From Rubripirellula amarantea (lineage in GTDB: Bacteria; Planctomycetota; Planctomycetia; Pirellulales; Pirellulaceae): 64,000 nucleotides of DNA. The position numbers were made by a program, and so were the translations under genes. The notes under the pieces are model-generated. The model saw only the letters and a list, made by a program, of their open reading frames with translations, did not search any database and was not told where the DNA came from. Numbering within the stretch: position 1 is the first letter of the stretch; every line of letters begins with the position of its first letter. The stretch covers positions 434,001 through 498,000 of the forward strand of contig NZ_SJPI01000003.1 of assembly GCF_007859865.1 (NCBI RefSeq). Direction: 5' to 3'. Shown here piece after piece: positions 40,157-64,000 of this stretch.

Positions 40157-41446
40157 TCAGTCACGCGACTGGCTCTTCTCCTCTGCCGAACGTAATACCT
40201 TCTCGCGTTCCTTACGATTGATCCGCTGCGCGTAGAACACGTCCGGTTTGTGAAAAACGTTGGTGTTCTTCATTCGCGGGTCATCGATGTCCAGACTCAG
40301 ATCACAGTCAAAGCGAGCCAAAGTGCTGTGCTGAGTAGTGTGAGTTCCCGCGTTGGTGAAGTGCGATAATCCCCACGCGATTCCTCGACCGTCACCATCA
40401 CTGGTAAACGCGTCGGGCACGTAAGGTCCACCGGCAATCGGAGGCAACGTGGTAACCGACGCAATTTCAAAATTGACGCCATCGGGTGCGTACTGGATGG
40501 TGTTCGCTTCATTGCCGTTGTGGATGAGCACCGCTGCGATACCTTCCTTGAAAGGAAAGAGCATCGTTTCGTGACCGGAGTTGAAAAGCGGATTGAGCGG
40601 ATGTTTCGTGAACGGGCCCAAAGGATTGTCAGCAATAGCAAGCCCTGCTGCGACTAAGTACTCAGGCCGATCGCCAAATGCAGCTTTGAAGTACAGATAG
40701 ATTTTTCCCTGGTAGACCAACGGGTATGGATCATGAATGGAATACTGGTCCCATTCGCCGGCATCACCGTTGGGAACGACTACTTGGTTGCATGCTGTCC
40801 AAGGCCCATCGGGTGAATCCGCATACGACGCCGTCACGGGACAATGGTCTCCCTTAGTACCACTGGCTTCCAAAAACCCTTGGTAGTAGAGGTAGTACTT
40901 GTCCTTCCACTTTAGGATGTCGGGGGTTGAGACAGATCGCCACCCTGGGTTCGGTTTGGGCGGCCGAGGCACTGCAATGCCTTGTTCTTCCCACGTGAAT
41001 CCATCCTGGCTGGTCGCATACCAAATCTCGCATAAGTCCCAGTCAGTCGACGGGATCGTTTCGGTGCTACTCTTGGAACCTTGAGGTGGGACCGCCGTGT
41101 GACGCTTGGTGTACCAAACGTAGTATTTGCCGTTCTCGCGAATCACCTTTGACGGATCACGACGCGAAATCGTGCCATCACCGTCGTGATAATCCAATCC
41201 TTCAAGCTTTGTGTACTTAAAGCTCGAAAAGAGTTCGTTGTCCTCCGGCCTTGGTGTGAGGTACTGCGAATAGAGCCTTTCCATCGCCGCGCTCATGGGC
41301 CGATCGGGTTTGGTTTGCGGTATGTCCCAAGGAAACCCCTGCGCTTCAACGCGTCCGGTGCCAGTCAACGCTATAAACACGCCGGTAAGCAAAACCAGCA
41401 TCTCATTACGCATCAATGATCGGAAACTTGCGGAAAGCCCACTCAT
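40157..41446 (-). CDS. GH117-type glycoside hydrolase (alpha-1,3-neoagarooligosaccharide hydrolase)
   Basis: 429 residues from the ATG at 41446; ATGs at 41413 and 41575 are alternatives. The start chosen clears the upstream GH16 gene and leads into a signal peptide (MLVLLTGVFIALTGTGRVEAQG). The five-bladed propeller carries the family's characteristic stretches: GTISRRDPSKVI, GKYYVWYTKR, EIWYATSQDGFTWEEQG, SVSTPDIL, SIHDPYPLV, NSGHETMLFPF. The acidic residue after RR and the His in SGHE match invariant residues of characterised GH117 enzymes. These release 3,6-anhydro-L-galactose from neoagarobiose by exo-action. It is last in the minus-strand agar cluster, 74 bp after GH16. Confidence 0.85.
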   Translation of the reverse strand: MSGLSASFRSLMRNEMLVLLTGVFIALTGTGRVEAQGFPWDIPQTKPDRPMSAAMERLYSQYLTPRPEDNELFSSFKYTKLEGLDYHDGDGTISRRDPSKVIRENGKYYVWYTKRHTAVPPQGSKSSTETIPSTDWDLCEIWYATSQDGFTWEEQGIAVPRPPKPNPGWRSVSTPDILKWKDKYYLYYQGFLEASGTKGDHCPVTASYADSPDGPWTACNQVVVPNGDAGEWDQYSIHDPYPLVYQGKIYLYFKAAFGDRPEYLVAAGLAIADNPLGPFTKHPLNPLFNSGHETMLFPFKEGIAAVLIHNGNEANTIQYAPDGVNFEIASVTTLPPIAGGPYVPDAFTSDGDGRGIAWGLSHFTNAGTHTTQHSTLARFDCDLSLDIDDPRMKNTNVFHKPDVFYAQRINRKEREKVLRSAEEKSQSRD

Positions 41447-41520
41447 AAGAATCTTTACCTTCAATATGTGTGAATGCCGACCAACAACGATCGGCAGCAG
41501 TTGCGATGATGCCGCTTCGG

Positions 41521-42399
41521 CTATTTGAGCTGCCATGTTCGAACCCAATCGTACTGCGTGGTGCGTTGGTCCCAATTTCCACTGGCAACAAGTCCACCAT
41601 CGTCGGGAACGGGATTCCAGTCATACGTTTCGATTGCCATTTGATAATACGAGGGAACATTCCAATCCACGTTCGGCTTAATGGAGTACGTGTATTTTCC
41701 ATCAAGATAGAAACGCACCTCTCGGGGCGACTTCCACCAGGCACCATAAACGTAGTAACGCTGCGAGTTCTTTGTTTCGGTAACCACTGAGTTTTGCAAC
41801 TGTTCTTTTTCGGGTTGCTTCCTAGTCGCTCGACGAATCATGTTGGAATGAAAAATCTGGTTCCAGTTCTTTGCCCATCCGGCCGTTTGATCAGTGGTTC
41901 GCCCAACGCATTCTTGAATGTCTAGTTCAAGCCGTCGCGGACTATTAGGAGGTGTCATCAACCAAAATGTTGACGACATCTCGGTCGCATTGGCCTTCAT
42001 TCGAGCCTCAAAGTACATCCCCACGTTGCCGGGATTTACCGATCGAATGATCGCTCCGTGATACTTAAATTCGTGACCATTGATCACCCTAGGCTCTTCA
42101 AGTTTGCCAACGGTGATTCTCAGATTTCCCTCTTCGACTACTGCTCCGCTTTCTTGAAAGAGACCTGGCGGTCGCCCGATCCAACCCCAACCATTCGCTG
42201 CCGGATCGGCGCTCCACTTACTTTTGTCTAGCTCGGTGCCATCGAAGTCATCCGAAAGCGATTCGACTCGTTGCCATTGCTTGTCGGTCGGCTTGGGGTC
42301 CTGCCCGTCATCAAAAAATGGTTGATCCGCAAACAGTTGCGTGCACACCAAAGTCATAAGAATCAAAACTAGATTTCGTTTCACGTTGCTACTCATCAA
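41521..42399 (-). CDS. GH16 endo-beta-agarase or porphyranase
   Basis: 292 residues, with a signal peptide (VLILMTLVCTQLFADQ). The GH16 jelly-roll catalytic motif ExDxxE is present as E158-L-D160-I-Q-E163, supplying nucleophile, assisting Asp and acid/base. Aromatic-rich strands (GWGWIGRPPGLFQ, FEARMKANATEMSSTFWLM, YYVYGAWWKSPREVRFYLDG) are typical of the marine agarase/porphyranase subfamilies. It is a single-domain secreted enzyme without a carbohydrate-binding module. It cleaves beta-1,4 linkages of the agar backbone to neoagaro-oligosaccharides. Agarase versus porphyranase cannot be separated by eye, and the neighbouring sulfatases leave both open. It lies 125 bp after a sulfatase gene on the same strand. 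Confidence 0.88.
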   Translation of the reverse strand: MMSSNVKRNLVLILMTLVCTQLFADQPFFDDGQDPKPTDKQWQRVESLSDDFDGTELDKSKWSADPAANGWGWIGRPPGLFQESGAVVEEGNLRITVGKLEEPRVINGHEFKYHGAIIRSVNPGNVGMYFEARMKANATEMSSTFWLMTPPNSPRRLELDIQECVGRTTDQTAGWAKNWNQIFHSNMIRRATRKQPEKEQLQNSVVTETKNSQRYYVYGAWWKSPREVRFYLDGKYTYSIKPNVDWNVPSYYQMAIETYDWNPVPDDGGLVASGNWDQRTTQYDWVRTWQLK

Positions 42400-42524
42400 A
42401 GAATTAGAAAGTGGTTTGTGTTTTGTACGAAGTGTTCAGCTAGAAGGGCCGATCCTAATCAATCAAGATGCCTCGCCTAAGACAGCCAAACAAGAGCCTA
42501 AACATAATACTTCTAAACAGTCAA

Positions 42525-43946
42525 TTATTTTCGATAGTCATCCATGCGCTTCATTGCAGCCCCCTCGTACTCTCGTTTGAGTTGCCATTGGGGGCGAACG
42601 AGTGTTAATTCCCATTCGAATAATTGTTCGTACATGGCTCTGACTTTGTCTGGATGCTGATCAGCAAGATTATCCGATTCTGCTATGTCCAAACTGATGT
42701 TGTACAACTCTGCTGGACGATCAGGAAAGCGGAGCAGTTTCCAGTCTCCGTCGCGTATCGCGGCTCGGGACTCCTTTTTCCAATAGAGCGTTTGATGAGG
42801 CCGAGCGTTGTCCCTCCCTTCGACAAAAGGGCGAAGGTCAACGCCATCAATCGGCTTTAGCTCACTCAAGTTCCCGCCCGCCGCGGCAACAAATGTTGGC
42901 AATAGATCGAGCATGCTAATCGGGTGAGTGTACTTCGATCCTGGCTTCGTAACGCCCGGCCAACGCATAAGAAACGGAACGCGTATGCCGCCTTCTAGAT
43001 GATTTGCCTTCGTACCGCTTAGCGGAGAATTGTCGGACGCATTCGCATCGCTAGGGCCACCGTTATCATTGGTGAAGACAACGATGGTGTTCTGATCAAG
43101 ATTCAATTCGTTAAGCTTGTCCAAGACGCGACCGCACGCGCGATCCATTGACAAAGTCATTGCCGCAAGCTGCCGTCGCTTTCCGCTTAGGTTCGGAAAT
43201 TCCTTCAAATCACTGGCTTCCGCTTGCATCGGATTATGAACCGCGTTGAAGGAAAGTAACACGAAGAATGGTCGACTTTGATTTCGTTCAATGAACGCAA
43301 CCGTTTCGTCCGCAAAAGCATCCGTCAAGTATTTCCCCGACTCGGCGAACTCTCCGAGCCCGCGTTCCAGCCGGTCTTCAGGTCGATGATTGAGGTTCCC
43401 CTCACCGAAGGCAAAGTAACTGCGAGCTCCACCACGGAAACCATAGAATTCGTCGAACCCGCGATTCATGGGATGAAAACGATCTGCGTTTCCTTGGTGC
43501 CATTTGCCGATCAGGGCCGTTCGATAACCTCGCGATTTCAAGTAATCCGCCACTGTCGCCTGATCGAGCGGAAGCCCCATCTCGTCGTCAGGCAGGCATG
43601 ATTCGCTCATGTATCCAGGAACGTTGTTCTCTTCGAAACCAAAACGTTGCTGGTATCTTCCGGTCAACAGCCCTGCTCGCGATGGTCCGCAAACGGCAGC
43701 ACTGACGTACGCTTGCTCGAACAGCATTGCCTGGTTCGCAAACGTGTCCAGCCGTGGCGATCGAATTTCACGACTCCCGTGAAATCCGAAATCCGCGTAG
43801 CCCGCGTCGTCGGCCAAGATCAAAACGATATTGGGTGGCTGGATATTGGGCGGCTGGATATTGGGTGGCTGAGCGCCGATTGCTGAGTAGAGAGGCGACA
43901 GAGCTACTGCCAATAGAATTGCCAAATAGTGCAAAGTCATTTTCAT
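42525..43946 (-). CDS. Exported formylglycine sulfatase (S1 type)
   Basis: 473 residues. Signal peptide to ~25, then a peculiar triple PPNIQ repeat (residues ~27-40) before the first sulfatase strand [13 protein letters not shown] with the metal-binding DD. The activation motif CGPSR spans C86-R90; Cys86 is expected to be oxidised to formylglycine. GKWHQG (~150), FTNDNGG and [19 protein letters not shown] follow, as in S1 enzymes. It should remove sulfate esters from algal galactan before or after depolymerisation, in the periplasm. Its start overlaps the stop of the upstream GH117-like gene as ATGA, which indicates tight translational coupling. Confidence 0.92.
43827..43871 (-). repeat. Three tandem 15-bp repeats in the sulfatase 5' end
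   Basis: Three in-frame copies (43827-43841, 43842-43856, 43857-43871) differ at one base and encode QPPNI three times at the start of the mature sulfatase. The last copy forms the family's usual PNIVLIL start, so the other two are extra. This is probably a slippage expansion. Confidence 0.85.
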
Positions 43947-45274
43947 TTCTTTGGCTCTTCACTTACCTTTTCATACTTTTGAATGTACATCCAGCCTTTG
44001 GGACCCGCGTTCCACTTCAAAACGTGACTGAGTCCCCATTGAACGCCAGCGTGAGGAGTGTTCTCGGGCTCAGAAGGACGAAACAGGCCTGCCGCCTCAG
44101 GCATATCGATCGCGGAACCCATGATTTGGAAATTCAGTCCATCTTCGGCGTACTGAATTGTCTTTGCTTCCGGTCCATCTTGGTGTTGCAAAATGGCAAT
44201 GCCATTTCCGTATTTCCAAACCATCACTTCGTGCCCGGTGTTGGTGATCGGATTGAACTCAGACTTCACAAACGGGCCCGTCGGATGATCAGCAACGGCG
44301 ACGCCCCACTTCACCTGCTTCTTTAATCCACAGCACGGGTTACACCACTTCACGCAATCCTCGTTATCGAAGCAGTTACATTCACCTTTGTAGTACAAAT
44401 AAAACTTGTCCTTGTAGTGAACCAAGCAAGGATCATGAACCGCATTGTTGTCGAAATACAGATCGTTCGTGTATGTCGGGGTCAGCACAGGATCCTTGAT
44501 CTTTGTCCAGGGACCATCGGGAGATTTGGCCTTTGCCATGCCCACATAGTTGCGTCCAAACACGCCATCTAGATCTGCGGCGGCTTGGTAAATGAGATAG
44601 TAATCGTCTTGATGAACAAAGATCTCCGTCGTAAACACGGACTGATGATCAAACGCCCCCTCTGGACCTCGCGTGACCGCGGCCCCCTGTTCATCCCAGG
44701 TCTCGCCGTCCGTCGACGTCGCATAGTAGAGATCATTGAGATCCCATGGCGCAGTCTTGGTGGCATCATGAGTAAGACTATATGAGTACCAGACATAGTA
44801 CTTGCCATTCGCGAATATGACTGAACTTGGATCACGACGAGTGAATTCTGGATCCGGAGCCAAGTCCCCCTTTAACAATGAATGCCGAAAACGAATGTTC
44901 CAATCTGGCCTCTCAGGGTTGTCAATTTCACAGCCATTGACGAGGTAACCTTCTTCGCGAATCGTGGCTGCACTCTTCCTTGCCTCTCGCAATGCAATGA
45001 CGTGTTTTTGGTTTGGATCAACTTGCTGCTTCTGTTCGAACAGGTATCCATTCAGTTCGAATCGCAGCGTCTTCGTACGACGATCGCTCGCCAAGATCGC
45101 AAAGGCACCATCGTTGTCAGTCGTCGCAGTCAAATTGTCTTCCACCAACAACACCTCGACTCCTGAGAGTGGCTTTGATGTTGCGGCATCCGACACCATC
45201 CCTTCAAAACTCTGGGCCGTTGCCCAGGCATAGGAAAGGCAGATTGCGGAAATACACAAAACTTGTCGGATCAT
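43943..45274 (-). CDS. Divergent GH117-like hydrolase with N-terminal carboxypeptidase-regulatory-like domain
   Basis: 443 residues. Signal peptide ([22 protein letters not shown]), then an Ig-like carboxypeptidase-regulatory-type domain at ~22-100 ([21 protein letters not shown] ... TDNDGAFAI). The GH117-like propeller follows ([56 protein letters not shown]). A Cys-rich insert ([18 protein letters not shown], near residue 300) has no counterpart in the neighbouring GH117 genes. The RRD and GHE positions are kept, so it may be active, but on a different substrate from the typical members. It is coupled by ATGA overlap to the sulfatase that follows. Confidence 0.8.
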
Positions 45275-45380: not shown

Positions 45381-47060
45381 TCAAAACGGATCTTGAGGAC
45401 GGAGCTTGATGATTTCAGCGTAGTCGACAATTCCGGAATCTTGTTTCCAAGTTTCGCAAAGTGCGGAAAGCTGCTGCACCAATTCGGGATGTGCGTCAGC
45501 CACGTTAGTCGTTTCCGCGGGATCACGTACGAGGTCATAGAGCTCGCGCACAACGCCTGGTTGCTTGAGGGTCTGCAAGTACCAACCCGGCTCTATCAAC
45601 AATTTCCAGCGACCTTGATAAATCACGCTTTGCTGACCCTTGTCATTAAAGAACAAGGTTTCCTTGGCCGGTGCGGATTCACCCATCAGCGTGCTCAACA
45701 TGCTACGTCCGTCAAGCCTCGTCGTTTTCTTCTCGCGGAAGGTTTCAGGGTAGTCTAGCCCGGCAACTTCCAAACATGTGGGCAACACATCTCCTACCCA
45801 TGCTTGGTTGTCCGAGACGGTTCCCGGCTTGATGTGCTGGGGCCAAGCAGCAATGAAATGGGTCTTGGTACCACCTTCCCAAACAAGCGCCTTTGACCCG
45901 AAATAAGGCGTATTCATAAATCCGTCAACGTGCGACGCACAACCGTTATCGGACAAGTAAATGATCAAACTGTTTTGATGTTCACCCGACGCTTTCAGTG
46001 CATTGATCAGTCGTCCAACGTTCTCGTCAACTTTCTCCACCATTGCAGCGTGAACTGCTAGTTGCAGCCTAAAGGAGTCGAGTTTCTGCTGGGGCGTCCA
46101 TCGCTTACGAGCACCGGCCGACCCGGGAAACAGCTGTTCCTCTTTTAGTTTCGTGATTCGATCTGTCGCCACCTTGCCCAAGTCCTGATAACGCGGCAAG
46201 TACTTTTGAACCAGTTTCTCTGGTGCTTGAAGCGGTTTGTGCGGAGCCCGATAGGCAACGTATAGAAAGAATGGTGGCTTGTCTTTCCCCGCTGCCCCCT
46301 GAATCATTTCGATGGCTCGATCCGTCACTCCATCCGTGTCGTAGAACGCTTTCGCCGTCTTGCCGTGATTCCTTCCGTATCGCCCGCCCGATTTGTCGGT
46401 GTAGCAGTGCATCGAATAGGTTCGTTCGAAACGAAGCTTCGCTGGTTGGTTGCCTTCCATGATGCGATGCGATTGGCCGGGCACAACAAAGAAGTTGTCT
46501 TGTGCCCCGTACAAGCCAAAGTATTCATCAAACCCGCGTTGGCTTGGCAAACCCAAGAAGTCCGATTCGATCTGTGATTCGGTAAGCTCCCACCCTGGGT
46601 GCGATTTCGACCATTCCTCCTGCATGGATTTGGATCCCCTCATCAAACTGCCGCCGAGATGCCACTTGCCCGACATCATCGTGTGGTAGCCCGCATTCTT
46701 AAGCACTTCAGGAAGCAGTGGAGTTTGATACGGCAGGCGACCGCGATGAGCAGGGAAGGGCATCTCTCGAGACCAATCACCCAGCGACCCACCACCAAAA
46801 CCAACTTTCGCGCATTCCAATCCGCTTAACAGTGACGCCCTCGTTGGACTGCACCGACCATTCGAATAAAAATTGCTTAAACGAATGCCTTGTGCAGCCA
46901 ATTCATCGATGTGAGGGGTATCGACCTCGCCGCCGTAGCATCCCAAGTCCGTGTACCCAGAATCATCCGACATGATCACAATCATGTTGGGCTTTTCTGA
47001 GGCCGATGCCAAACTGGGCAGCATCGCCAGCACGATCAACGCAATGTGATTCAAATTCAT
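45381..47060 (-). CDS. Exported formylglycine sulfatase (S1 type, long form)
   Basis: 559 residues with a signal peptide (MNLNHIALIVLAMLPSLASA). Metal ligands lie in MSDDSGYTDLG at 30-40. The sulfatase signature CSPTR spans C70-R74 and is followed by ASLLSG. GKWHLGG near 130 and LSDNGCASH near 375 complete the metal and substrate sites. It is longer than the other sulfatase by ~85 residues, in line with different substrate loops. The enzyme is expected in the periplasm, removing sulfate from red-algal galactan. It lies 107 bp upstream of the GH117-like/sulfatase pair and ~100 bp downstream of the GH50 gene. A maturase (FGE or anSME) must be encoded elsewhere. Confidence 0.93.
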   Translation of the reverse strand: MNLNHIALIVLAMLPSLASASEKPNMIVIMSDDSGYTDLGCYGGEVDTPHIDELAAQGIRLSNFYSNGRCSPTRASLLSGLECAKVGFGGGSLGDWSREMPFPAHRGRLPYQTPLLPEVLKNAGYHTMMSGKWHLGGSLMRGSKSMQEEWSKSHPGWELTESQIESDFLGLPSQRGFDEYFGLYGAQDNFFVVPGQSHRIMEGNQPAKLRFERTYSMHCYTDKSGGRYGRNHGKTAKAFYDTDGVTDRAIEMIQGAAGKDKPPFFLYVAYRAPHKPLQAPEKLVQKYLPRYQDLGKVATDRITKLKEEQLFPGSAGARKRWTPQQKLDSFRLQLAVHAAMVEKVDENVGRLINALKASGEHQNSLIIYLSDNGCASHVDGFMNTPYFGSKALVWEGGTKTHFIAAWPQHIKPGTVSDNQAWVGDVLPTCLEVAGLDYPETFREKKTTRLDGRSMLSTLMGESAPAKETLFFNDKGQQSVIYQGRWKLLIEPGWYLQTLKQPGVVRELYDLVRDPAETTNVADAHPELVQQLSALCETWKQDSGIVDYAEIIKLRPQDPF

Positions 47061-47163: not shown

Positions 47164-49269
47164 TCATTGGTTTGATCGAACCGAACGCACTTCGTAAATC
47201 TCATTGCCAATCTCGCGAGCCGCCTCGATTGTTTCTTGGTACGGGGTGTCGCAGTTGTCAACGAATCCCACTTGATAGTTTTCGCCATCGCCACGTCCAG
47301 CCGTTGGTTCGGACATGTATTGAAACCAATGAGTGCCGACGACTCGGGGATTGTTCAGGGCACTGTGGAGAAAAGCCTTGTAGCATTCGGCTCGGTGCTG
47401 CTGGTTTCTTGCCGGCACTTTAGTCGGATGAAACATCCCTCGATCAAGCGCGCCAAAATGAAACTCTCCGACCATGATTGGCTTGTCTTCACCTTCGGGC
47501 AACTTCAGATCAGCAATGCTGTAGCGGTACTGATTAAAGCTAACGACATCACAAAACTTCGAAGCGGCACGAAGTGCGATCTCGTTGTCCCAAATGAATC
47601 GACATCCTAAGTAGAGCTGATCGGGAGCAGCCTTCGCGAGTTCTGCCTTCACAGTCCCAAAGTATGTTTCTGAAAACTTCTTTGAAAACGCGAGTAAGTC
47701 TTCCCGCGACTTGTTCACATCAGGAGTCTCGGTTTGGGAAGTCAGCTCATCCCAACTCTGGTACTCCGTTCCCCATTGCTCGTTGAGCTTCTCGATCGCT
47801 TCGTACTTGGCTTTCAAGTCCTCGACAAAAACTTGCTTGGCGACTTGGTCGGCCGGACAAGCGAGTGTCCAAAGCGCGATCGCCTCATTGTTGCCCCAAT
47901 ACAGTTCGTTATCGACATAGAAGCCTATACACCATGGATCACCGATCGAAGCCTGGCAGGTTTTGATTCCTTCTACGACCGCCTCTCGAAACTGGGGGTC
48001 AAACACATCGACAAATTGGGTCCACATTTTTTGGGCCCCCTGAAGCGTCGGACAGTCTTCAGCCCGAAAGAACGCAGTGTAGGGCGTTCTATGTTGCAAG
48101 TAGACGTCCGGATCGGACCATGACGCAAGCGTATTCATCCCCCAACTACGCAGTCGAGTGTGAGCGAGGTTGGCGAAGTCGGCTTTCCAATCATCGCCAT
48201 ACTTGCGATACAGATTCGCCGTGTAAAAGTTGTAGGTTTCATAGGGAATGCGATCGGCGTAGAACCCGAACGCCCAATTGCTGCGAGCATAGAATTGCCC
48301 CAGCGGAGTTTCCTTATCCGGAAGGTTTCGGAAGTAACTCTCGCGATGTTCGGTTCCTGTTCCACCAAAACGAACCGCAACCGCATCGATCCCATGGGAC
48401 CAAAACCGACATCCATCGGGATCAATGAGCCACCATGTTCCCTCATGCTTTTCAACTCGAAAGAACTTTGCGGGATCACGTTGCGGACCGTTGAGCCAAC
48501 CACCGAAACGATTGAAGTTTTCGGGACCTGGGTGCTCCGCGAGATCCTTTTGTTCGTCTATCGCATGCTGGGCAAGTTGTTCATCGGAATGAATCTTGCC
48601 CGGCCATTCACCGTGTATGAACTGCCCATACTCGTCGATGAAAGGCAGGAAGCTATCCGCATCGAGTACCGTCACTGGCTTTTCGAATCGAATGTTATCG
48701 ATCGTGAATTTGTGATCGGACTTCGGCATTCGCAGGAAGATGATTAGCTCCTTGATCTTCGCTGGATCGAGCGTCTGTTGCCCCGGCGCCGCATGCATGC
48801 CTTCAAGTTTGAGTGGCTTGGAAAATTGCCATGGGGTATGGGATAGATTCACTGACACAACCCGCGATTCACCTGGCTTGATGTAGGTCATCACGGTGAT
48901 GCCTTTATCGAAACCGTTGCCGCCGGGATTATCCATCCGCACCCCGAGTTCAAATCCTTCATCACTTAAGTTAGTTAGATCGAATGCCAAACGTTGAAAG
49001 CTCGCACCATCCCAAAATTGGTTTTGCGGCCGAAGGGTAATTCCCGGCCAATCCGTTTTGTGTCCTGTATCGAGCTGAATCTTTCCTTTAGAAGCTGAAT
49101 CAAGAAGCGAAACTTCGACGCCTCTCATTTCAATCTTTTCGCTGTAGTTTTCATCATTAAAATCGAACTGCAACTTCGTTGAAGAATTCGCTTGCGCGAT
49201 CGCGGTCGAACAAAGAACTGCACTCGTCAGAACGAGCAATGCAAGAGAACTAAAGGAGCTGGTTGTCAT
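47164..49269 (-). CDS. GH50 beta-agarase
   Basis: 701 residues from the ATG at 49269. The frame continues to 49335, but that stretch contains the terminator of the preceding gene, and the signal peptide begins at MTTSSFSSLALLVLTSAVL. A CBM-like beta-sandwich (~25-230) precedes a TIM barrel. The catalytic acids are in YVDNELYWG near 454 (acid/base) and VGEFHFGALDRG near 602 (nucleophile), with RSWGMNTLASWSD and GTHWFQYMSEPT also typical of GH50. Members cleave agarose or neoagaro-oligosaccharides, mostly to neoagarobiose by exo-action. The product would feed the GH117 enzymes. It is secreted or periplasmic. Confidence 0.92.
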   Translation of the reverse strand: MTTSSFSSLALLVLTSAVLCSTAIAQANSSTKLQFDFNDENYSEKIEMRGVEVSLLDSASKGKIQLDTGHKTDWPGITLRPQNQFWDGASFQRLAFDLTNLSDEGFELGVRMDNPGGNGFDKGITVMTYIKPGESRVVSVNLSHTPWQFSKPLKLEGMHAAPGQQTLDPAKIKELIIFLRMPKSDHKFTIDNIRFEKPVTVLDADSFLPFIDEYGQFIHGEWPGKIHSDEQLAQHAIDEQKDLAEHPGPENFNRFGGWLNGPQRDPAKFFRVEKHEGTWWLIDPDGCRFWSHGIDAVAVRFGGTGTEHRESYFRNLPDKETPLGQFYARSNWAFGFYADRIPYETYNFYTANLYRKYGDDWKADFANLAHTRLRSWGMNTLASWSDPDVYLQHRTPYTAFFRAEDCPTLQGAQKMWTQFVDVFDPQFREAVVEGIKTCQASIGDPWCIGFYVDNELYWGNNEAIALWTLACPADQVAKQVFVEDLKAKYEAIEKLNEQWGTEYQSWDELTSQTETPDVNKSREDLLAFSKKFSETYFGTVKAELAKAAPDQLYLGCRFIWDNEIALRAASKFCDVVSFNQYRYSIADLKLPEGEDKPIMVGEFHFGALDRGMFHPTKVPARNQQHRAECYKAFLHSALNNPRVVGTHWFQYMSEPTAGRGDGENYQVGFVDNCDTPYQETIEAAREIGNEIYEVRSVRSNQ

Positions 49270-49301
49270 GAACAGAATGCTTGAAAAGAAGTTTTGGAAA
49301 G

Positions 49302-49332
49302 AAAAACGCCTTGATCTATTTGGATCAAGGCG
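49302..49332 (-). terminator. Intrinsic terminator after the PEP-CTERM gene
   Basis: CGCCTTGATC pairs with GATCAAGGCG (10 bp) around a 6-nt loop, and TTTTTC follows on the minus strand. It sits 28 bp after the PEP-CTERM stop codon, so the GH50 gene must use its own promoter. It also argues against the longer GH50 reading. Confidence 0.88.
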
Positions 49333-49359
49333 CATGCGTTTCCCTGGTTTGATTCGGGT

Positions 49360-54014: not shown

Positions 54015-54033
54015 CATGTTAACAATTAACATG
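54015..54033. promoter_or_regulatory. Perfect palindrome, candidate GntR operator
   Basis: CATGTTAA-CAA-TTAACATG is an 8-bp perfect dyad with a 3-bp spacer, located between the divergent eda and gntR genes. The size and spacing fit FadR-subfamily operators. It sits 42 bp before the regulator's start codon. Confidence 0.65.
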
Positions 54034-55846: not shown

Positions 55847-56899
55847 ATGAAAATTTCCAAAGCACCGTTCGGTGAATTCGAAGGCAAAGCGGTTGATCTA
55901 TTCACGCTGGAAAACGACAACGGCGTGACGATGAAGATCACCACTTACGGTGGGACCGTGACTTCGATCGTAACGCCAGACAAGGATGGCAATCTAAGTG
56001 ACATCGTTTGCGGTTTTGATTCGCTCGACAGTTACTTTGCCGACGAATACAAAACAAACTCGCCTTACTTTGGCTGCCTTGTTGGCCGCTACGCAGCACG
56101 CATCAAAGACGGCAAGTTCACCGTCGATGGCACCGAGCACCAAGTAGCCACCAATGATGGCCCCAACCACTTACACGGAGGAGTGAAGGGCTTCGACAAG
56201 CGGGTTTGGGACGTCGCTAGCACATCGGAGGATTCCGATTCGGTGGCTTTGAAGCTCTCACTTAATAGCGCGGACGGCGAAGAAGCCTTTCCCGGAAATC
56301 TAAACGTGGTGGTCGAATACCGTCTTACCAACGACAACGAAATACGTATTAACTATCAAGCGGAAACCGACAAAACCACGCCGGTCTCACTGACCAATCA
56401 CACATATTTCAACTTAAACGGATTCAAGGACAAGGTTCTCGATCACGTCTTGCACCTGAAAAGCGATCGCGTCCTCGTACCTGATGAAACGAATGTTCCA
56501 GTTGGTGACGAAGAGTCGGTGGCCGGCACCGCGGCTGACTTTAACGAACCCAAACGAATTGGCGATGCCTTCGACGAGCTACCGCTTGGCTTCGAACACT
56601 TCTATGCCTTCAGCAAACCAGTGGGCGCACTGGAGAAGGTTGCTGAAGTTACGGAACCAACCTCAGGCCGCAAGCTTGAAGTCCTTTCAACCGAACCCGG
56701 CACGCTCCTCTATACCGGGCGATACACGTCGGACAATCTGAAGCGAGAAAACGGTGACCAGTTCGGCCAATTCCGAGCTTTCTGTATCGAAACGTCCAAG
56801 TACCCCAACGGCCCCAACATCGACAACGCTCCCAAGAGCGTTTTGAAGCCGGGCGAAAAATATGACGAAACGACGGTTTACAAACTCAGTTGGGCTTAG
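55847..56899 (+). CDS. galM: Aldose 1-epimerase (mutarotase)
   Basis: 350 residues, ATG start 9 bp after the transporter. GalM motifs are GGTVTSIVTPDKDGNL with VCGFDSLDSY, the substrate-binding NDGPNHLHGGVKGFDKRVW near 103-120, the catalytic His in TNHTYFNLNG near 182, and the catalytic Glu in FCIETSKYPNGPN near 315. It is cytosolic (no signal peptide). It interconverts sugar anomers; D-galactose is the other half of the agar repeat, so it may prepare galactose for kinase action. The Leloir genes are not in the window. Confidence 0.92.
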   Translation: MKISKAPFGEFEGKAVDLFTLENDNGVTMKITTYGGTVTSIVTPDKDGNLSDIVCGFDSLDSYFADEYKTNSPYFGCLVGRYAARIKDGKFTVDGTEHQVATNDGPNHLHGGVKGFDKRVWDVASTSEDSDSVALKLSLNSADGEEAFPGNLNVVVEYRLTNDNEIRINYQAETDKTTPVSLTNHTYFNLNGFKDKVLDHVLHLKSDRVLVPDETNVPVGDEESVAGTAADFNEPKRIGDAFDELPLGFEHFYAFSKPVGALEKVAEVTEPTSGRKLEVLSTEPGTLLYTGRYTSDNLKRENGDQFGQFRAFCIETSKYPNGPNIDNAPKSVLKPGEKYDETTVYKLSWA

Positions 56900-56944: not shown

Positions 56945-57958
56945 ATGAAATCAGCTCAGTACAAAGGCGACCGTACCGTCGCGGTCGGCACCAGTGAAGC
57001 CATCAAACCCGGCCCCGGTGAGGCTCGCCTAGAAGTAGCCTATTGCGGTATTTGCGGTACCGACATCCACATCTTTCACGGCGCCATGGACCAACGAGTC
57101 CACATGCCGCAAATCATCGGACACGAAGCGTCCGCCGTCGTTGCCGAGATTGGCGAAGGAGTCACAAGTGTCGCGGTTGGCGATCGCGTTGCCGTGCGTC
57201 CTTTAAAGTTTGGTGAGCCATCGAGTTTTGACAACGGATTTGCGCACGTCGGCAAAAACTTGAAGTTCATCGGGATTGATATGCCTGGTGGGATGCAGTC
57301 GTCATGGACTGTCCCCGCTTACACGCTCCACCAACTCCCAGAGACCTTGAACTTGCAACACGGGGCGATGATTGAACCCGCCGCTGTCGCCTGCCACGAT
57401 GTACGTCTAGGCGAAGTCAAAGCTGGTGAAACTTGCGTTGTCATCGGAGGCGGTCCGATTGGACTATTAATTGCCCTGGTTGCAATCGACAAGGGCGCCA
57501 CCGTGATACTATCGGAAGTCAACCAAACTCGATTGGACTTGGCGGAAACGCTCGGCATCAAGGTTGTCAATCCAATGAACCAAAATCTTCCCGATGCGGT
57601 TCGCGAAATGACGAACGGAAAGATGGCCGACTGTGTCTTTGAAGTGTCAGGCTCCGCTCCCGGAGTGGAGGTCATGACTGAACTGCCTAACGTTCGTGGT
57701 CGTATCGTGATGGTTGCGATTCACCCGCAGCCCAAGCCAGTCAACCTGTTTAAGTTCTTCTGGTCCGAAATCAAGATGATCGGCGCTCGACTTTACGAAG
57801 AGCAAGATTTCGACGAAGCAATTCAACTGGCCGCCAGCGGTAAACTGCATCTCGACAAACTCATCACCAAAATTAGTCCGATCGACCAAGTCCAAGAGAC
57901 CTTCGAGGCAATCGACGCCAATCCCGATGGCATCAAGTACTTGATCCAATGCAGCTAA
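56945..57958 (+). CDS. Zinc-type MDR dehydrogenase, predicted C5 dehydrogenase of 2-keto-3-deoxy-L-galactonate
   Basis: 337 residues. Catalytic-zinc residues are C37 in CGICGTD, and H60-E61 in IGHEASAVV; the NAD-binding GGGPIGLL segment is near 165. The four-Cys structural-zinc loop normally found around 90-110 is missing: the stretch RPLKFGEPSSFDNGFAHVG has no Cys. It resembles the sorbitol/L-galactonate-type dehydrogenases. In the known anhydrogalactose route an NAD enzyme oxidises C5 of 2-keto-3-deoxy-L-galactonate, and its reduction by a second enzyme then gives KDG. The KduD-like neighbour fits that second step. The specific assignment is inference. Confidence 0.8.
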   Translation: MKSAQYKGDRTVAVGTSEAIKPGPGEARLEVAYCGICGTDIHIFHGAMDQRVHMPQIIGHEASAVVAEIGEGVTSVAVGDRVAVRPLKFGEPSSFDNGFAHVGKNLKFIGIDMPGGMQSSWTVPAYTLHQLPETLNLQHGAMIEPAAVACHDVRLGEVKAGETCVVIGGGPIGLLIALVAIDKGATVILSEVNQTRLDLAETLGIKVVNPMNQNLPDAVREMTNGKMADCVFEVSGSAPGVEVMTELPNVRGRIVMVAIHPQPKPVNLFKFFWSEIKMIGARLYEEQDFDEAIQLAASGKLHLDKLITKISPIDQVQETFEAIDANPDGIKYLIQCS

Positions 57959-57990
57959 CTCATCACCAATATTCACGATAATTCTTGATC

Positions 57991-58761
57991 ATGACGACTC
58001 TTCAAACATTCGACTTATCCGGCAAGACGGCCTTGGTCACCGGGTGCAAACGCGGCATCGGCAAAGGCATGGCCGTGGGCTTGGCCGAAGCGGGAGCCAA
58101 TATCATTGGCGTATCCGCTTCGCTTGAACTCAGTGGCAGCGATGTCGAAAAGGAAGTAACCGCGCTCGGGAGAACCTTTCATGGCTACCAATGCGATTTT
58201 TCAGATCGCGAAGCCGTGTACAAGTTCATCACAGACGTCAAAGCGGACCATCCTCAGATCGACATCTTGGTCAACAATGCGGGCACCATTCTTCGCAAAC
58301 CAGCCGCCGAGCATCCCGATGAGTATTGGGACAAAGTATTGGAAGTAAATCTTAACGCTCAATTCGTTCTTGCTCGTGAGTTTGGCAAAGAGATGCTCAC
58401 TCGGGGCAGTGGAAAAATCATCTTCACTGCTTCGCTGCTGACCTTTCAAGGGGGAATCACCGTCCCCGGTTACGCAGCAAGCAAAGGTGGCATTGGTCAA
58501 CTCACGATGGCATTGGCAAACGAGTGGGCGGGTAAAGGAGTGAACGTCAACGCAATCGCGCCCGGCTACATTGCAACGGACAACACCGAAGCCTTGCGTG
58601 ACGATCCCATTCGAAGCGAACAAATCCTCGCTCGAATACCGGCCGGTCGTTGGGGCAATCCCGATGACTTCAAAGGTCCCGTTGTTTTCTTGGCATCCGA
58701 CGCCGCGAACTATGTACACGGCACGACTTTGCTAGTCGATGGCGGCTGGATGGGCCGCTGA
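57991..58761 (+). CDS. KduD-like short-chain dehydrogenase/reductase
   Basis: 256 residues from the ATG at 57991 (a TTG at 57985 precedes it). Classical SDR: TGCKRGIGKGMAVG at the cofactor site, NNAGT near 93, catalytic Ser in FTASLLTFQGG, Tyr-x3-Lys in GYAASKGG near 157-161, and PAGRWGNPDDFKGPVVFLASDA plus DGGWMGR at the end. These last segments are strongly KduD-like. KduD interconverts KDG and 2,5-diketo-3-deoxygluconate, exactly the C5 reduction needed to convert the oxidised L-galactonate derivative to KDG. Cytosolic, in an operon with the zinc dehydrogenase 32 bp upstream. Confidence 0.88.
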   Translation: MTTLQTFDLSGKTALVTGCKRGIGKGMAVGLAEAGANIIGVSASLELSGSDVEKEVTALGRTFHGYQCDFSDREAVYKFITDVKADHPQIDILVNNAGTILRKPAAEHPDEYWDKVLEVNLNAQFVLAREFGKEMLTRGSGKIIFTASLLTFQGGITVPGYAASKGGIGQLTMALANEWAGKGVNVNAIAPGYIATDNTEALRDDPIRSEQILARIPAGRWGNPDDFKGPVVFLASDAANYVHGTTLLVDGGWMGR

Positions 58762-58774
58762 TAAAGACTCTAAA

Positions 58775-58882: not shown

Positions 58883-60361
58883 ATGACCAAGTCCATGAAA
58901 GAGTCGAGCGACGGGATCGATCGCTATCGCATGTTCATCAATGGCGAGTTTTGCGACTCGGTGTCCGGTGAAACCATCGACGTTGAAAGCCCGACGAATG
59001 AGCAAGTATTGTTCACGGTCCCCAAGGGGAACCAGCAGGACGCGATTCTTGCGCTTGAAACCGCCCAGGCTGCGCAAAAAGCATGGGCCGCTAGGCCCGC
59101 TGTCGAAAGAGGCGAGATCCTTTCAAAGTTCGCGGACCTAATTCGCGAAAACCGCGAACGGCTGGCCAAAATTTTGGTTCAGGAAATGGGTAAGACCTAC
59201 GGACTGGCTTTGGGTGAAGTTGACGTATCAGCGGACTTCATCAACTTCCCCGCGCAAGCCGCTCGACGGTTGGAAGGCGATATCCTTCCATCCGACTTGC
59301 CAAACGAACACATCATGATTCACAAGGTTCCCTATGGCGTCACCGTCGGGATCGCCGCGTGGAACTTCCCTCTCGCACTTGCTTGCCGAAAGATCGGCCC
59401 AGCGTTAACCACGGGCAATGTGATGGTCGTTAAACCGCCGTCCGTGACTCCCGTCGCTGTCCTAGCCCTCGGCGAACTCGCTCAACAAGCTGGCATTCCT
59501 AAAGGCGTTCTAAATCTTGTTACCGGTGGCGGATCCACCATGGGCGAGGAACTTGTCACCAACAAGATCACTCGTTTGGTAACCATGACCGGTTCAACGC
59601 CAACGGGGCAAGAAATTTTCCGAAAGGCTGCCGAACGATTGACCGCCGTACGATTGGAACTCGGCGGGAAAGCCCCATTCATTTTGCTGGCCGATGGTGA
59701 CGTGGAAAAGGCTGTCGATGCAGCCGTGGTTTCTCGTCACCTCAACAGCGGTCAGGTGTGCACGTGTCCTGAACGATTCTATATCCACGACGCTGTTTAT
59801 GATGAGTTCCTTGAAAAGTACATCGCTGCCGTTTCCAAGTTGAAGATTGGCGACCCCATGGAAGAAGGTACTGACATCGGGCCGAAGGTGAATGCTCACG
59901 AAACAAATGAGCTTGAAAAGATTGTCAAGCGAGCCGTCGACGCCGGTGCCAAAGTTGCCCTCGGTGGCAAACGTCCCGAAGGCGAAGCATTCCAAAAAGG
60001 ACATTGGTATGAGCCCACAATTTTGACCGACTGCACCAATGACATGAGCGTGATGCGAGACGAAGTCTTCGGCGTTGTCAGCCCCATCATGCGAATCAAG
60101 AGTTACGACGAAGCATTGGAGCTTGCCAACGATAGTGACTTCGGACTTGCAGCTTTTCTGTTCACGCGCGACATGCGACTGATTCAGCGAGCAGTTCTTG
60201 AACTTGAATTTGGCGAAATCTATGTCAATCGTCCGATGGGCGAGCAACGACAAGGGTTCCACAATGGGCACAAGTTAAGCGGAACCGGGGGCGAAGACGG
60301 CAAGTACGGACTCGACAATTACCTCGAAAAGAAAACGATGTACGTGAATTTCAATGACTAA
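58883..60361 (+). CDS. AldA-like aldehyde dehydrogenase, predicted 3,6-anhydro-L-galactose dehydrogenase
   Basis: 492 residues, ATG start. ALDH residues are N161 in AAWNFPL, E259 in RLELGGKAP and the nucleophile C293 in [13 protein letters not shown]. The C-terminus ([21 protein letters not shown]) closely resembles E. coli AldA, the lactaldehyde/glycolaldehyde dehydrogenase. Its position directly before an enolase-superfamily gene, with an 8-bp overlap, and among agarases fits the oxidation of 3,6-anhydro-L-galactose to anhydrogalactonate. AldA-type activity on lactaldehyde remains an alternative, but no fucose or rhamnose genes are present. Cytosolic. Confidence 0.85.
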
Positions 60362-61538
60362 CTCAATACCCTCACCCGCATCTCAGACTTCGGTGGACGG
60401 CACGGTCGGCCCATTGGAAGTCAAATCTACTGCTAAGATCAAACCAACTGTGAAGATTAAATCCATCGTTGCACGCCTGTTCAACGTCCCACTTCCCGAA
60501 GTGTTATCCGACGCCAAGCACGGTGATCACACACACTTCGAGTTAGTGACGGCTACGGTTACGCTTGAAGACGGCAGCGAAGGTACCGGATACACCTATA
60601 CCGGCGGCAAAGGCGGTCATGCGATCAAAGCAATGATCGAACACGACCTTGCACCGGCGCTGATCGGCAAAGATGGCAACGACATCGATGCGGTATATGA
60701 CTTTATGGAATGGCACATCCACTACGTTGGTCGCGGAGGGATAGCGTCGTTTGCCATGTCGGCGATCGACATCGCGCTTTGGGATATCCGCTGCTTGAAA
60801 GCGGGTGAACCGCTTTGGAAGATGGCGGGTGGTGCTGGTAATAGTTGTAAGGCTTACTGCGGCGGCATCGACCTGATGTTCCCGCTAGACAAGCTCCTCA
60901 ATCAAATCCGCGGCTATTTGGCCAACGGCTTTAACGCCGTCAAAATCAAGATCGGTCGAGAGAATCTCGATGAAGACATTGAGCGGATCAAAGCAGTTCG
61001 TGAGCTGATTGGCCCCGAACGCACATTCATGGTTGACGCGAACTACTCGATGAGCGTGGACAAGGCCATTGAAGCTGCAAAACGATTCGAGCCCTATGAC
61101 ATTGCATGGTTTGAAGAACCAACCATTCCGGACGACTACCTTGGCTACGCGAAGATAGCCGATGCGACAGGCGTACCACTGGCGATGGGCGAGAACTTGC
61201 ACACGATCCATGAGTTTGGCTATGCGTTTGAGCAATCCAAACTTTCCTTTATCCAACCTGATGCATCGAATTGCGGTGGCATCACCGGATGGTTGGCTGC
61301 TGCCGCAATGTCGCGGAAATACGACACCCCGGTTTGCTCACACGGCATGCAAGAGCTTCACGTCAGCTTGGTTTCGTCTCAACCTAACGCTGGCTGGCTA
61401 GAAGTTCACAGTTTCCCGATTGATCAGTACACAACGCGTCCTTTGGTAGTCGAAAACTATCGCGCGGTGGCATCCGACGCACCCGGTACCGGCGTCGTTT
61501 TCGAATGGGAAAAATTGGCTCCTTTTGAGGTCAAGTAG
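60354..61538 (+). CDS. Enolase-superfamily enzyme, predicted anhydrogalactonate cycloisomerase
   Basis: 394 residues; its ATG overlaps the end of the dehydrogenase gene by 8 bp. Mandelate racemase-like layout: KxK at K197-K199 (base), metal ligands D228, E254 and E280 ([19 protein letters not shown]), and H330 in [10 protein letters not shown]. The N-terminal capping domain has [10 protein letters not shown]. Members with this pattern include the cycloisomerase that opens the anhydro bridge of 3,6-anhydro-L-galactonate to 2-keto-3-deoxy-L-galactonate. Coupling to the aldehyde dehydrogenase gene and the surrounding agar genes make this the favoured role. An acid-sugar dehydratase is the alternative. 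Confidence 0.85.
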
Positions 61539-61576
61539 GTTCCCACCAGAGCTGACGTAGATCAAGTCACTTCGCG

Positions 61577-62902
61577 ATGAACATCACGCGAGCCTTGCTG
61601 AGCATCCGCACCACAGACTTAAGAGTGATCTCCATGATTCAAATGTTTGCGTTGACCATAGCCTTATGTAGCGGCTGGCTTTACTCGGCTGTCGCGGACG
61701 AATCCCAGGTCTTTCCGTACGGTAACGTTCCTGACGAAAAGCCTGACCTACCACTTAGCACCGCGATGCAACGCGTCTATGACGGCACCTATGCGGGGAT
61801 CGATGCAACGCGCAACGAACTGTTCTCGCGTTTCAAATACACTCCGTTGGAAGGCTTTGATTATCACGGCCACGACGGAACGGTTTCGCGACGTGATTCT
61901 ACGAAGGTCATTCGTGCCAATGGCAAGTACTACGTTTGGTACACCCATCGCCAAACTCCCACACCGCCCAACTATGATGGCGGCGCCAACGAAACCATAC
62001 CTTCTCGCGATTGGGACTTGTCTGAGATTTGGTATGCGACCAGCGACGATGGATTTAGGTGGGAAGAGCAGGGCGTTGCAATCAAACGCATGGAGAAACC
62101 CAACGCCGGGTGGAGATCCGTATCGACTCCCGACATCTTGGTTTGGAAAGGCAAGTACTACATGTACTATCAAGCCTACCTGTTTATGCCGGGCAGTCGC
62201 GAATCAAGCGGAACCAACGGCGACGATTGTCCAGTATCGGCTTCGGTAGCGGATTCACCCGATGGCCCTTGGACACCATGCAATAAAATTGTGGTCGAAA
62301 ACGGACCGCCGGGCTCATGGGACCAGTACGTGATTCACGACCCCTATCCCTTGGTGCGAAACGGACAAATCTACCTGTACTACAAGGGAGAGATGGGGGG
62401 GACTCCCTTGCCTGTTCGTGCTCAGGGGCTCGCAATCGCCGACCATCCTTTTGGACCCTTCAAAAAGCACCCGCTCAACCCAGTCATCAACTCGGGTCAC
62501 GAAACGTCGCTATTCCCATTCAAGACCGGAGTGGCTGCGCTCGTGAGTCGCCATGGGCTCGAGCACAACACGATTCAGTACTCGCCCGACGGCGTGAATT
62601 TTGAAATTGCTGCGATCACCGGACTGATGCCAATCGCACCGGGAGCTTACGTTCCCGATGCGTTCACGGACACCGCCGATGGTCGGGGGATCACATGGGG
62701 CCTATGCCACTTTCGAAACCTTGGTCGCGACGAGGGCAAAAGTCATAGCATGCTCGCTCGTTTCGACTGCGATCTAAGCTTAGACGTGGACGACCTAGAA
62801 ATGAAAGAGACCGATATCTTTAACGACCCAGAAATCAATTTCAAATTCGGGCTCAGCGAAACGCAGCGAAAACGAATCGAAGCGGCAACCAAGAACGAAT
62901 AG
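61577..62902 (+). CDS. GH117-type glycoside hydrolase
   Basis: 441 residues. A second start at 61634 (MIQMFALTIALCSGWLYS) would give a shorter signal peptide. The propeller shows [96 protein letters not shown] and DCDLSLDVDD. It is close to the 40157 and 62992 genes. The position after RRD is Ser where the other four genes have Pro. It is the only GH117 on the catabolic operon strand (38 bp after the cycloisomerase), so the enzyme that releases anhydrogalactose is co-expressed with the enzymes that use it. Confidence 0.88.
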   Translation: MNITRALLSIRTTDLRVISMIQMFALTIALCSGWLYSAVADESQVFPYGNVPDEKPDLPLSTAMQRVYDGTYAGIDATRNELFSRFKYTPLEGFDYHGHDGTVSRRDSTKVIRANGKYYVWYTHRQTPTPPNYDGGANETIPSRDWDLSEIWYATSDDGFRWEEQGVAIKRMEKPNAGWRSVSTPDILVWKGKYYMYYQAYLFMPGSRESSGTNGDDCPVSASVADSPDGPWTPCNKIVVENGPPGSWDQYVIHDPYPLVRNGQIYLYYKGEMGGTPLPVRAQGLAIADHPFGPFKKHPLNPVINSGHETSLFPFKTGVAALVSRHGLEHNTIQYSPDGVNFEIAAITGLMPIAPGAYVPDAFTDTADGRGITWGLCHFRNLGRDEGKSHSMLARFDCDLSLDVDDLEMKETDIFNDPEINFKFGLSETQRKRIEAATKNE

Positions 62903-62937
62903 AACTACTGGTGTGTCATGAGAACGTTTCGACAGTG

Positions 62938-62953
62938 AGCACTCGCGAGTGCT
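62938..62953. other. 16-bp perfect palindrome between convergent genes
   Basis: AGCACTCGCGAGTGCT is fully self-complementary and lies in the 89-bp gap between two convergent GH117 genes. It may act as a shared bidirectional stop signal, although it lacks a T tract. Confidence 0.45.
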
Positions 62954-62991
62954 TGCCGTTCGGCGTTTGATCAGGACTCTCGTCGTTCTTG

Positions 62992-64000
62992 TTACTTCGC
63001 TAGATCCTGCTTTGCGGCTTGCTGACGCTGCTTGATTGATCCCTCACCGAGGCCGTTTTGAAAATAGACTTCGGGTGAGTAGTAGTATTCAGGATCCTTC
63101 ATGAAGCGGTCGTCAAGATCTTGACTGAGATCACAATCAAAGCGACCTAAAATCGTATGTGCCTTGTCGCGAGATTTGGCTCCCCATGGAAAGTGGCACA
63201 ATCCCCATGTGATCCCTCGACCATCGTCGGTGTCCGTGAACGCATCGGGGACATAGGGTCCTGGCGCGATTGGCATTAGAATAGCCGTGGACGTCATTTT
63301 GAAATTGATTCCATCGGGCGCGAACTGAATCGTGTCGTGTTCGTTCCCGTGTCGTATGGCCAGGGCAGCAATGCCACCACGAAACGGAAACAGCCCCGTT
63401 TCATGCCCCGAGTTCAACACTGGATTAAGTGGACATTTCTCGAACGGTCCCAACGGATCATCCGCAATGGCAAGACCTTGCGCACGCACGGGATGGGGAG
63501 GCCCGTTAAAGTCGGACTTGTAATACAGATAGATCCGCCCCTTGTAGACCAAGGGATAAGGATCGTGAATGGAATACTGGTCCCATGCACCTTCGGGACC
63601 ATTGGGGACCACGATCTTGTTTGTGGCCGTCCAAGGCCCATCGGGTGAATCAGCGTACGAAACGGATACTGGGCAATCGTCCCCGCGTTTACCCGAAACC
63701 TCCATGAATCCTTGGTAGTAAAGGTAGTACTTTCCTTTCCAAAACAGGACATCCGGAGTCGAAACAGAACGCCAGCCAACATTCGGTTTGGGTGGACGAG
63801 GGACTGCAACACCTTGTTCTTCCCAGGTAAATCCATCAGTGCTGGTCGCATACCAAATCTCAGCCAAGTCCCAGTCAGCAGACGGAATCTCGTCAGTCGC
63901 GTCATCGGCGCCGCGTGGTGGGCTGACGGTGCTTCGATGGGTGTACCAAACGTAGTACTTTCCATTTGCCTTAACGACCTTAGAAGGATCACGTCGAGTA
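62992..64000 (-). CDS. GH117-type glycoside hydrolase, partial
   Basis: The frame is open from its stop near 62992 to the right window edge (336 codons seen); the N-terminus, including the signal peptide, is beyond the edge. Read from the edge it starts [22 protein letters not shown], followed by EIWYATSTDGFTWEEQG, SVSTPDVLFWKGKYYLYYQGF, SIHDPYPLV, LNSGHETGLFPFRGG and DCDLSQDLDD. An internal TTG at 63867 is not a real start. It is most like the 40157-41446 gene (both have VAVPRPPKPN) and is the fifth family member in 24 kb, convergent with the fourth. Confidence 0.88.
   Translation of the reverse strand, partial: TRRDPSKVVKANGKYYVWYTHRSTVSPPRGADDATDEIPSADWDLAEIWYATSTDGFTWEEQGVAVPRPPKPNVGWRSVSTPDVLFWKGKYYLYYQGFMEVSGKRGDDCPVSVSYADSPDGPWTATNKIVVPNGPEGAWDQYSIHDPYPLVYKGRIYLYYKSDFNGPPHPVRAQGLAIADDPLGPFEKCPLNPVLNSGHETGLFPFRGGIAALAIRHGNEHDTIQFAPDGINFKMTSTAILMPIAPGPYVPDAFTDTDDGRGITWGLCHFPWGAKSRDKAHTILGRFDCDLSQDLDDRFMKDPEYYYSPEVYFQNGLGEGSIKQRQQAAKQDLAK

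Follow-up and report, generated by a model that had tools for sequence, protein, structure and literature searches.

The window considered here, a stretch of 64,000 nucleotides from Rubripirellula amarantea (NZ_SJPI01000003.1, positions 434,001 to 498,000; contig C3 of the 6.95-Mb host genome, G000), carries at positions 40157-64000 a divergent gene set that we regard, with high confidence, as a planctomycete catabolic locus for an agar-type galactan of red algae, the probable substrate being porphyran or sulfated agar. Gene identities were taken from the sequence, and every activity, export step and mode of regulation described below was inferred from them. An earlier sequence-only reading had proposed a complete agar-to-pyruvate locus, and all gene classes that it named were found in their places as long intact frames. 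It had passed over two sulfatases, a PEP-CTERM protein, four further GH117 genes and, bordering 40157-64000 on its left, an AraC/PAS regulator.

The plus-strand arm (54075-62902) encodes, in this order, GntR, a RhaT-like importer, GalM, a medium-chain dehydrogenase (MDR), a KduD-like short-chain dehydrogenase (SDR), an aldehyde dehydrogenase (ALDH), a cycloisomerase and GH117c2. When ALDH and the cycloisomerase were compared with characterised enzymes, the best matches were 6j75 and 5xd7, the anhydrogalactose enzymes, which we take to be proteins of Vibrio sp. EJY3. Together with GH117a of the opposite arm, the two matched characterised enzymes at 1e-181 to 1e-215, in agreement with the earlier proposal of a locus for catabolism of 3,6-anhydro-L-galactose (AHG) in a planctomycete. 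Two marks of an AHG cluster, a cycloisomerase nearest to the solved one and an AldA-type dehydrogenase, are present: beyond two entries of 3,6-anhydro-alpha-L-galactonate cycloisomerase the next solved match of the cycloisomerase was at 1.1e-94, and that of ALDH after 6j75 at 1.8e-159. By motif, ALDH carries Asn161, Glu259 and Cys293, the positions named catalytic in the AHG dehydrogenase SCO3486 (PMC9706016). The comparison with solved structures covered GH16, GH50, GH117 a, b and c2, the MDR, the SDR, ALDH and the cycloisomerase; all but the MDR had best relatives at 1e-60 to 1e-215, a similarity that is not chance.

The proposed pathway would begin outside the cytoplasm, where the sulfatases and the porphyranase-B-like GH16 would open the polymer, GH50 would yield neoagarobiose, and an exported AhgA-like GH117 would free AHG and galactose. 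The RhaT-like symporter would take up the monosaccharide, and in the cytoplasm the AldA-like enzyme would oxidise AHG and the cycloisomerase would give 2-keto-3-deoxy-L-galactonate (L-KDGal). The MDR would then oxidise C5 of L-KDGal, the KduD-like SDR would reduce the product to 2-keto-3-deoxygluconate (KDG), and the kinase and aldolase would convert KDG to pyruvate and glyceraldehyde-3-phosphate. The GntR/FCD regulator probably governs both arms via TGTTRANNNTYAACA palindromes. Coordinates are collected in Table 1.

Table 1. Genes and predicted sites of the locus, from left to right (signal peptides judged by eye)
Feature	Position	Strand	Evidence or remark
AraC-type regulator with PAS domain	39345..40142	+	Left edge of locus
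GH117 paralogue c1, dyad Asp to Asn	40157..41575	-	GH43-clan Pfam match
GH16, porphyranase-B-like endo-hydrolase	41521..42399	-	Motif ELDIQE; 3juu porphyranase B 1.4e-60
Formylglycine-type sulfatase A	42525..43946	-	Motif CGPSR; PF00884 1.1e-60
GH117 paralogue b, N-terminal carboxypeptidase-regulatory-like domain	43943..45274	-	Dyad Asp kept
Formylglycine-type sulfatase B	45381..47060	-	Motif CSPTR; PF00884 1.4e-49
GH50 exo-beta-agarase-like, with agarase CBM-like domain	47164..49335	-	PF17992 26.7 bits (cut-off 26.3)
PEP-CTERM-tagged protein within arm	49360..50187	-	Domain match; also in G001 at 52%
GH117a, AhgA-like 3,6-anhydro-alpha-L-galactosidase	50434..51609	-	3p2n 3.1e-215; RRD, GHE, dyad Asp; apparent signal peptide
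Second predicted GntR operator, AGTTAACTGTCAACA	51770..51784		One mismatch; gap upstream of GH117a
PfkB kinase, KDG or KDG/KDGal kinase-like	52061..53167	-	NF041633 284 bits, NF041332 147 bits, both below cut-off
KDPG/KHG aldolase	53274..53909	-	TIGR01182 243.7 bits (cut-off 156.05)
Predicted GntR operator, TGTTAACAATTAACA	54017..54031		In 165-base divergent promoter
GntR/FCD transcriptional regulator	54075..54677	+	Pfam
RhaT-like sugar/H+ symporter	54725..55837	+	PF06379 32.8 bits (cut-off 27); NF010022 264.7 bits (cut-off 369)
Aldose 1-epimerase GalM	55847..56899	+	NF008277 270.9 bits (cut-off 240)
MDR Zn-type dehydrogenase, proposed L-KDGal 5-dehydrogenase	56945..57958	+	Best solved structure 4e-41; conserved neighbour
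KduD-like SDR, proposed to reduce the 2,5-diketo-3-deoxy acid to KDG	57985..58761	+	TIGR01832 331.6 bits (cut-off 338.85); 4z9y 4.3e-77
AldA-like ALDH, proposed AHG dehydrogenase	58883..60361	+	6j75 1.3e-181; NF007497 528.8 bits (cut-off 500)
3,6-anhydro-L-galactonate cycloisomerase, enolase superfamily	60354..61538	+	5xd7 2.3e-188; KxK, VDAN, EEP, GEN, HGMQE, LEVH motifs
GH117 paralogue c2, dyad Asp to His	61577..62902	+	4u6d 1.9e-167
GH117 paralogue c3, dyad Asp to His	62992..64000, runs past window	-	416 aa at L003:992-2242

Polymer-degrading arm and its substrate

The minus-strand arm (40157-53909) holds three GH117 copies, GH16, two sulfatases, GH50, the PEP-CTERM protein, the PfkB kinase and the KDPG aldolase. 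After porphyranase B, the solved matches of GH16 were 4awd porphyranase (2.8e-28), porphyranase A (2.1e-23) and a GH16 carrageenase (3.9e-9), and the best beta-agarase match reached only 4.8e-8; among solved structures beta-agarases are not its closest relatives. By similarity, this GH16 is porphyranase-B-like and not an agarase. Both sulfatases carry the motif C-x-P-S/T-x-R, which we take to mark the formylglycine type; the sulfatase family gave 76 matches in the whole genome, 75 of them above the cut-off, some being pieces of one gene. GH50 matched the beta-agarase 4bq2 at 5.6e-97 with its DNE and GEFH motifs, presumably the catalytic ones, in alignment. Because GH16 is nearest to porphyranase B and two sulfatases lie in the same arm, porphyran or sulfated agar appears at least as likely a substrate as agar, and the earlier assignment of agar as substrate was accordingly revised.

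Six GH117 matches were found in the genome, five in the locus, one of these crossing the window end. As judged by motif and spacing, not structure, GH117a, b and the sixth copy combine RRD and GHE with an Asp located 18 positions past the His, whereas c1, c2 and c3 keep RRD and GHE but have N, H and H, respectively, at the dyad position. Asp90, His302, Glu303 and Asp320 are key residues of a Phocaeicola GH117, in which the His302-Asp320 spacing is likewise 18 (PMC11574756); the Asp90 equivalent would be the D of RRD. Identity of c1 was 58-59% to c2 and c3 and 37% to GH117a, and its true start is probably downstream of the listed TTG. The nearest solved proteins of c2, 4u6d and 4u6b, are labelled only conserved hypothetical; we take them to be the Zobellia pair Zg3615/Zg3597. 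The c-type enzymes may have a different substrate or slower catalysis. The sixth copy (L102:7912-9156, on contig C2 of the host) is 59-62% identical to the c type, yet keeps the dyad aspartate. The N-terminal domain of GH117b also matches the start of the SusC model weakly (24 bits, restricted to that domain); among related loci, only two genes of the Bacteroidota bin L071 were labelled with a carboxypeptidase-regulatory-like domain.

The locus might even serve chiefly for porphyran, with its L-galactose-6-sulfate units, AHG being a minor product and the c-type GH117s and sulfatases acting on sulfated or methylated motifs. We hold this possibility tentatively; it is compatible with a locus for agar-type galactan. 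It is favoured by the GH16 and the two sulfatases, and by three GH117s that lack the dyad aspartate, c2 being nearest to proteins named only hypothetical. The dedicated AHG route, the AhgA-type GH117 and GH50 argue against it, as does the finding of no GH29-type L-galactose-releasing enzyme in Pfam scans of the locus and its flanks, the rest of the genome not having been searched.

Related loci and the divergent promoter

For the distribution of the locus genes, the best 80 of 475 stretches encoding a cycloisomerase relative were kept, and the counts therefore apply to near relatives; nine stretches fell short of 19 kb and were left out, giving n = 71. A gene was scored as present when tblastn matched the window protein with 60 bits or more inside the fetched stretch, absence being the weaker evidence. 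High counts were observed for ALDH (63/71), MDR (62/71), the RhaT-like importer (61/71), SDR (60/71), any GH117 (58/71) and GalM (56/71); the MDR-SDR pair was found at 58 loci and all five core genes at 45. Because of these counts, the importer and the core cluster are to be considered standard, and only part of the unusual arrangement noted in the sequence-only reading persists, namely the divergent layout around GntR, this regulator being matched at 1 of 71 loci, that of R. obstinata (G021). The KDG kinase (7/71) and KDPG aldolase (6/71) were also rare. Thus the local features of the locus are GntR and the presence of kinase and aldolase inside, which are uncommon elsewhere, and the gene cluster itself is a fairly ordinary further example of a set known from other marine bacteria.

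The cycloisomerase was detected at 1e-80 or better in 6 of 60 genomes, the host included, with identity of 85-100% in G000, G001 and G021 and of 46-48% in G023, G026 and G032. Within the genus, it occurs in 2 of 21 other members, and an AhgA-type GH117 in 3 of 22 genomes, the host again included. Over the 40 kb read per locus, G001 retains the order from sulfatase B through GH117c2 over both arms at 52-93% identity, and G021 keeps the core GH117a and, across the divergent promoter, GntR-RhaT-GalM-MDR-SDR-ALDH-cycloisomerase. A quick cycloisomerase tree of 82 rows was made from 84 loci put in and 81 used; L101, L066 and L090 were excluded because their matched stretches contain a stop, and L013 (G021, judged the same contig as L020) and L016 (a short copy of L101) were left out. 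The window, G001 and R. obstinata formed a starred group (96), next to two members of the Pontiellaceae (Kiritimatiellota; 82, not starred); Bacteroidota made up 67 of the 82 rows. Patchy presence and this kinship fit transfer among marine phyla, with loss as the alternative. In G032, of the same family, the same GntR-RhaT-GalM-MDR-SDR-ALDH operon was observed (L101:3143-11864). The L101 matched stretch extends back into the ALDH end, and its frame 9688-10797 is open; this encodes, in the cycloisomerase slot, an enolase-superfamily enzyme with 44-46% identity and most active-site motifs kept, perhaps a divergent cycloisomerase, followed by a second GalM.

The new element here is the conserved palindrome TGTTRANNNTYAACA (R/Y allowed). 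It lies upstream of GntR in the window and in two relatives, G001 and G021; G032 has it there with one mismatch. These copies provide no independent test because the motif was drawn from those same promoters. Independent copies were found upstream of GH117a, with one mismatch in the window and perfect in the corresponding gap of G001 (L097:12014-12028). With up to one mismatch, the degenerate pattern gave three matches in the window against 0.58 expected, and none of 100 shuffles reached three; the third match falls within the gene at 36002-39319. In the whole genome, four perfect places were detected, against one for the reversed control pattern. Of the other three, two lie within long open frames (L123, L124) and one (L125) outside any frame of at least 100 aa; all are read as chance. 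With up to two mismatches, no palindrome was found in the seven other locus gaps or in the gap right of GH117c3. The palindrome is a likely GntR operator for both arms, and as such a directly testable candidate. The AraC/PAS protein is a possible second regulator.

No SusC or SusD was detected by Pfam among the 20 proteins scanned, 18 of which lie inside 40157-64000, and judged by this pair the locus is not a polysaccharide utilization locus in the Bacteroidota sense. Its lack had been counted among the unusual features, but SusD (PF07980) was absent from all 22 genus genomes, one Bacteroides control being positive. On the left (34539-39319), the locus adjoins a pair of a kind common in planctomycetes, one gene of the DUF1501 type and one of the PSCyt1/PSCyt2/PSD1 type, the latter carrying a LamG-like domain. 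A flanking RadC gene has a RadC match in 17 of 22 genomes. Right of the window, GH117c3 is followed by a sugar-type ABC importer with binding protein, ATPase and two permeases (L003:2257-6900), unmatched in the 20 kb read rightward in G001.

Route to pyruvate and the galactose half

Several observations weigh against the pathway as proposed. GH16 and the sulfatases suggest porphyran, not plain agar; the MDR resembles solved enzymes at the family level only, and the kinase, SDR and RhaT-like protein lie below NCBIfam cut-offs. The galactokinase binding domain PF10509 had no match in the genome (control positive in 10 of 14). In G001, GH16 and sulfatase A have traded places, and three GH117 genes (b, c1 and c3) found no match in the 40 kb read; over the same length, G021 gave none for kinase, aldolase, GH50 or sulfatases. 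As to regulation, an AraC/PAS regulator flanks the locus, and the strict 15-mer with up to three mismatches gave three matches against 0.99 expected, two of them being one site counted on both strands, with equally high counts in 7 of 100 shuffles. Because of the differences in G001 and G021, only the AHG core is constant. Since the similarity of the MDR is at the family level, the reaction proposed for it was assigned from its gene neighbours and from published work. With the SDR slightly below the KduD cut-off, C5 inversion is supported by the wide occurrence of the MDR-SDR pair beside the cycloisomerase.

The claim of enzymes for every step to pyruvate thus stands for AHG and not for the D-galactose half: in the absence of a galactokinase match, only the AHG half of agar is accounted for. 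DgoK (PF05035) also had no match in the genome (control positive in 2 of 14), and GalT gave one partial match, whose 87-residue piece was far under NCBIfam cut-offs. Classical galactose entry by GalK or DgoK was therefore not found, in a search that covered those two and not other sugar kinases. Among the 22 genus genomes, galactokinase matches were observed in two, G012 and G021. With galactokinase missing, there is a definite gap in the use of the galactose half of agar by these bacteria. One rather unlikely solution is that both agar sugars feed their carbon into the kinase and aldolase of the locus under one GntR operator, AHG via C5 inversion and D-galactose via an oxidative route with a bifunctional KDG/KDGal kinase. 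It would fit because the window and G001 have kinase and aldolase in the locus and no galactokinase match, and G021, in which neither was matched over 40 kb, shows the opposite; the comparison covers these three genomes only.

It is more doubtful still that L-KDGal is phosphorylated and cleaved directly, the MDR and SDR serving otherwise, for example in galactose oxidation. According to a 2024 review, what becomes of L-KDGal in bacteria is unresolved (PMC11219438); the kinase matches bifunctional KDG/KDGal kinases below cut-off, and no galactokinase-domain match was found. On the other side, MDR and SDR both adjoin the cycloisomerase at 58 of 71 loci (at the threshold applied, 13 are missing at least one of the two), and PMC5943477 and PMC10163077 assign such enzymes a role in C5 inversion. 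The frequent MDR-SDR neighbourhood therefore supports a conversion of the Pseudoalteromonas atlantica type over the unresolved view. A carrageenan locus for D-anhydrogalactose of the DauABCD type, as known in Planctomycetes (PMC5698469) and hinted at by the carrageenase match noted above and a weak NCBIfam kappa-carrageenase match of GH16 (43.1 bits, cut-off 350), is very improbable and was rejected on the cycloisomerase comparison (629 bits to the L-form enzyme against 134.5 bits to DauB 5olc), the more so as the sugar-releasing enzymes in the scanned locus proteins are GH117, no GH127/129 was seen there (the genome was not searched for them), and the Dau route as given in that source has no MDR-SDR pair.

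Comparison with known systems

The locus assigns to Rubripirellula-type planctomycetes an agar-specific route for an L-anhydro sugar; its genes are intact and in part syntenic. Among the open-licence papers listed, no title or opening of an abstract describes an AHG route in planctomycetes. Agarase, porphyranase and GH117 genes were reported in Rhodopirellula and relatives as enzyme counts and trees (PMC4807772); unlike the window, these GH16/GH50/GH117 inventories include, in the part of the source available, no AHG catabolic operon. The D-AHG (carrageenan) loci, such as Zobellia ZGAL_3145-3159, follow an analogous dehydrogenase-cycloisomerase-kinase-aldolase logic with a DMT sugar/H+ symporter alongside, and homologous loci were reported in Planctomycetes (PMC5698469); they differ from the window in the D-sugar, the lack of an MDR-SDR pair and a distantly related cycloisomerase.

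Vibrio sp. EJY3 shares the first two enzymes, AHG dehydrogenase and cycloisomerase, and is credited with these two steps, L-KDGal being thought to enter central metabolism afterwards (PMC5943477). The earlier statement that all reactions are known from Vibrio was therefore too broad: C5 inversion by MDR and KduD is the P. atlantica route, for which a three-step conversion of L-KDGal is cited in the same source. Pseudoalteromonas atlantica T6c and Paraglaciecola hydrolytica likewise lead AHG to KDPG via C5 inversion (PMC5943477), with neighbourhood and transport other than in the window.

Similar in content are the clusters of agarolytic Bacteroidota, Zobellia ZGAL_4657-4669, an agar-induced cluster (PMC5613140), and Aquimarina ERC-38 PUL-a, in which GH117, MDR, KduD-like SDR, AHG dehydrogenase and cycloisomerase lie together (PMC10163077). 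The Aquimarina GH117, SDR, AHG dehydrogenase and cycloisomerase are nearest to 3P2N, 4Z9Y, 6J75 and 5XD7 (PMC10163077), and the same four entries were the best solved matches of the window enzymes. GalM and a RhaT-like importer also stand alongside in related genomes. In contrast to these clusters, the locus described here is without SusC/SusD, is arranged divergently around GntR, and holds the KDG kinase and KDPG aldolase inside.

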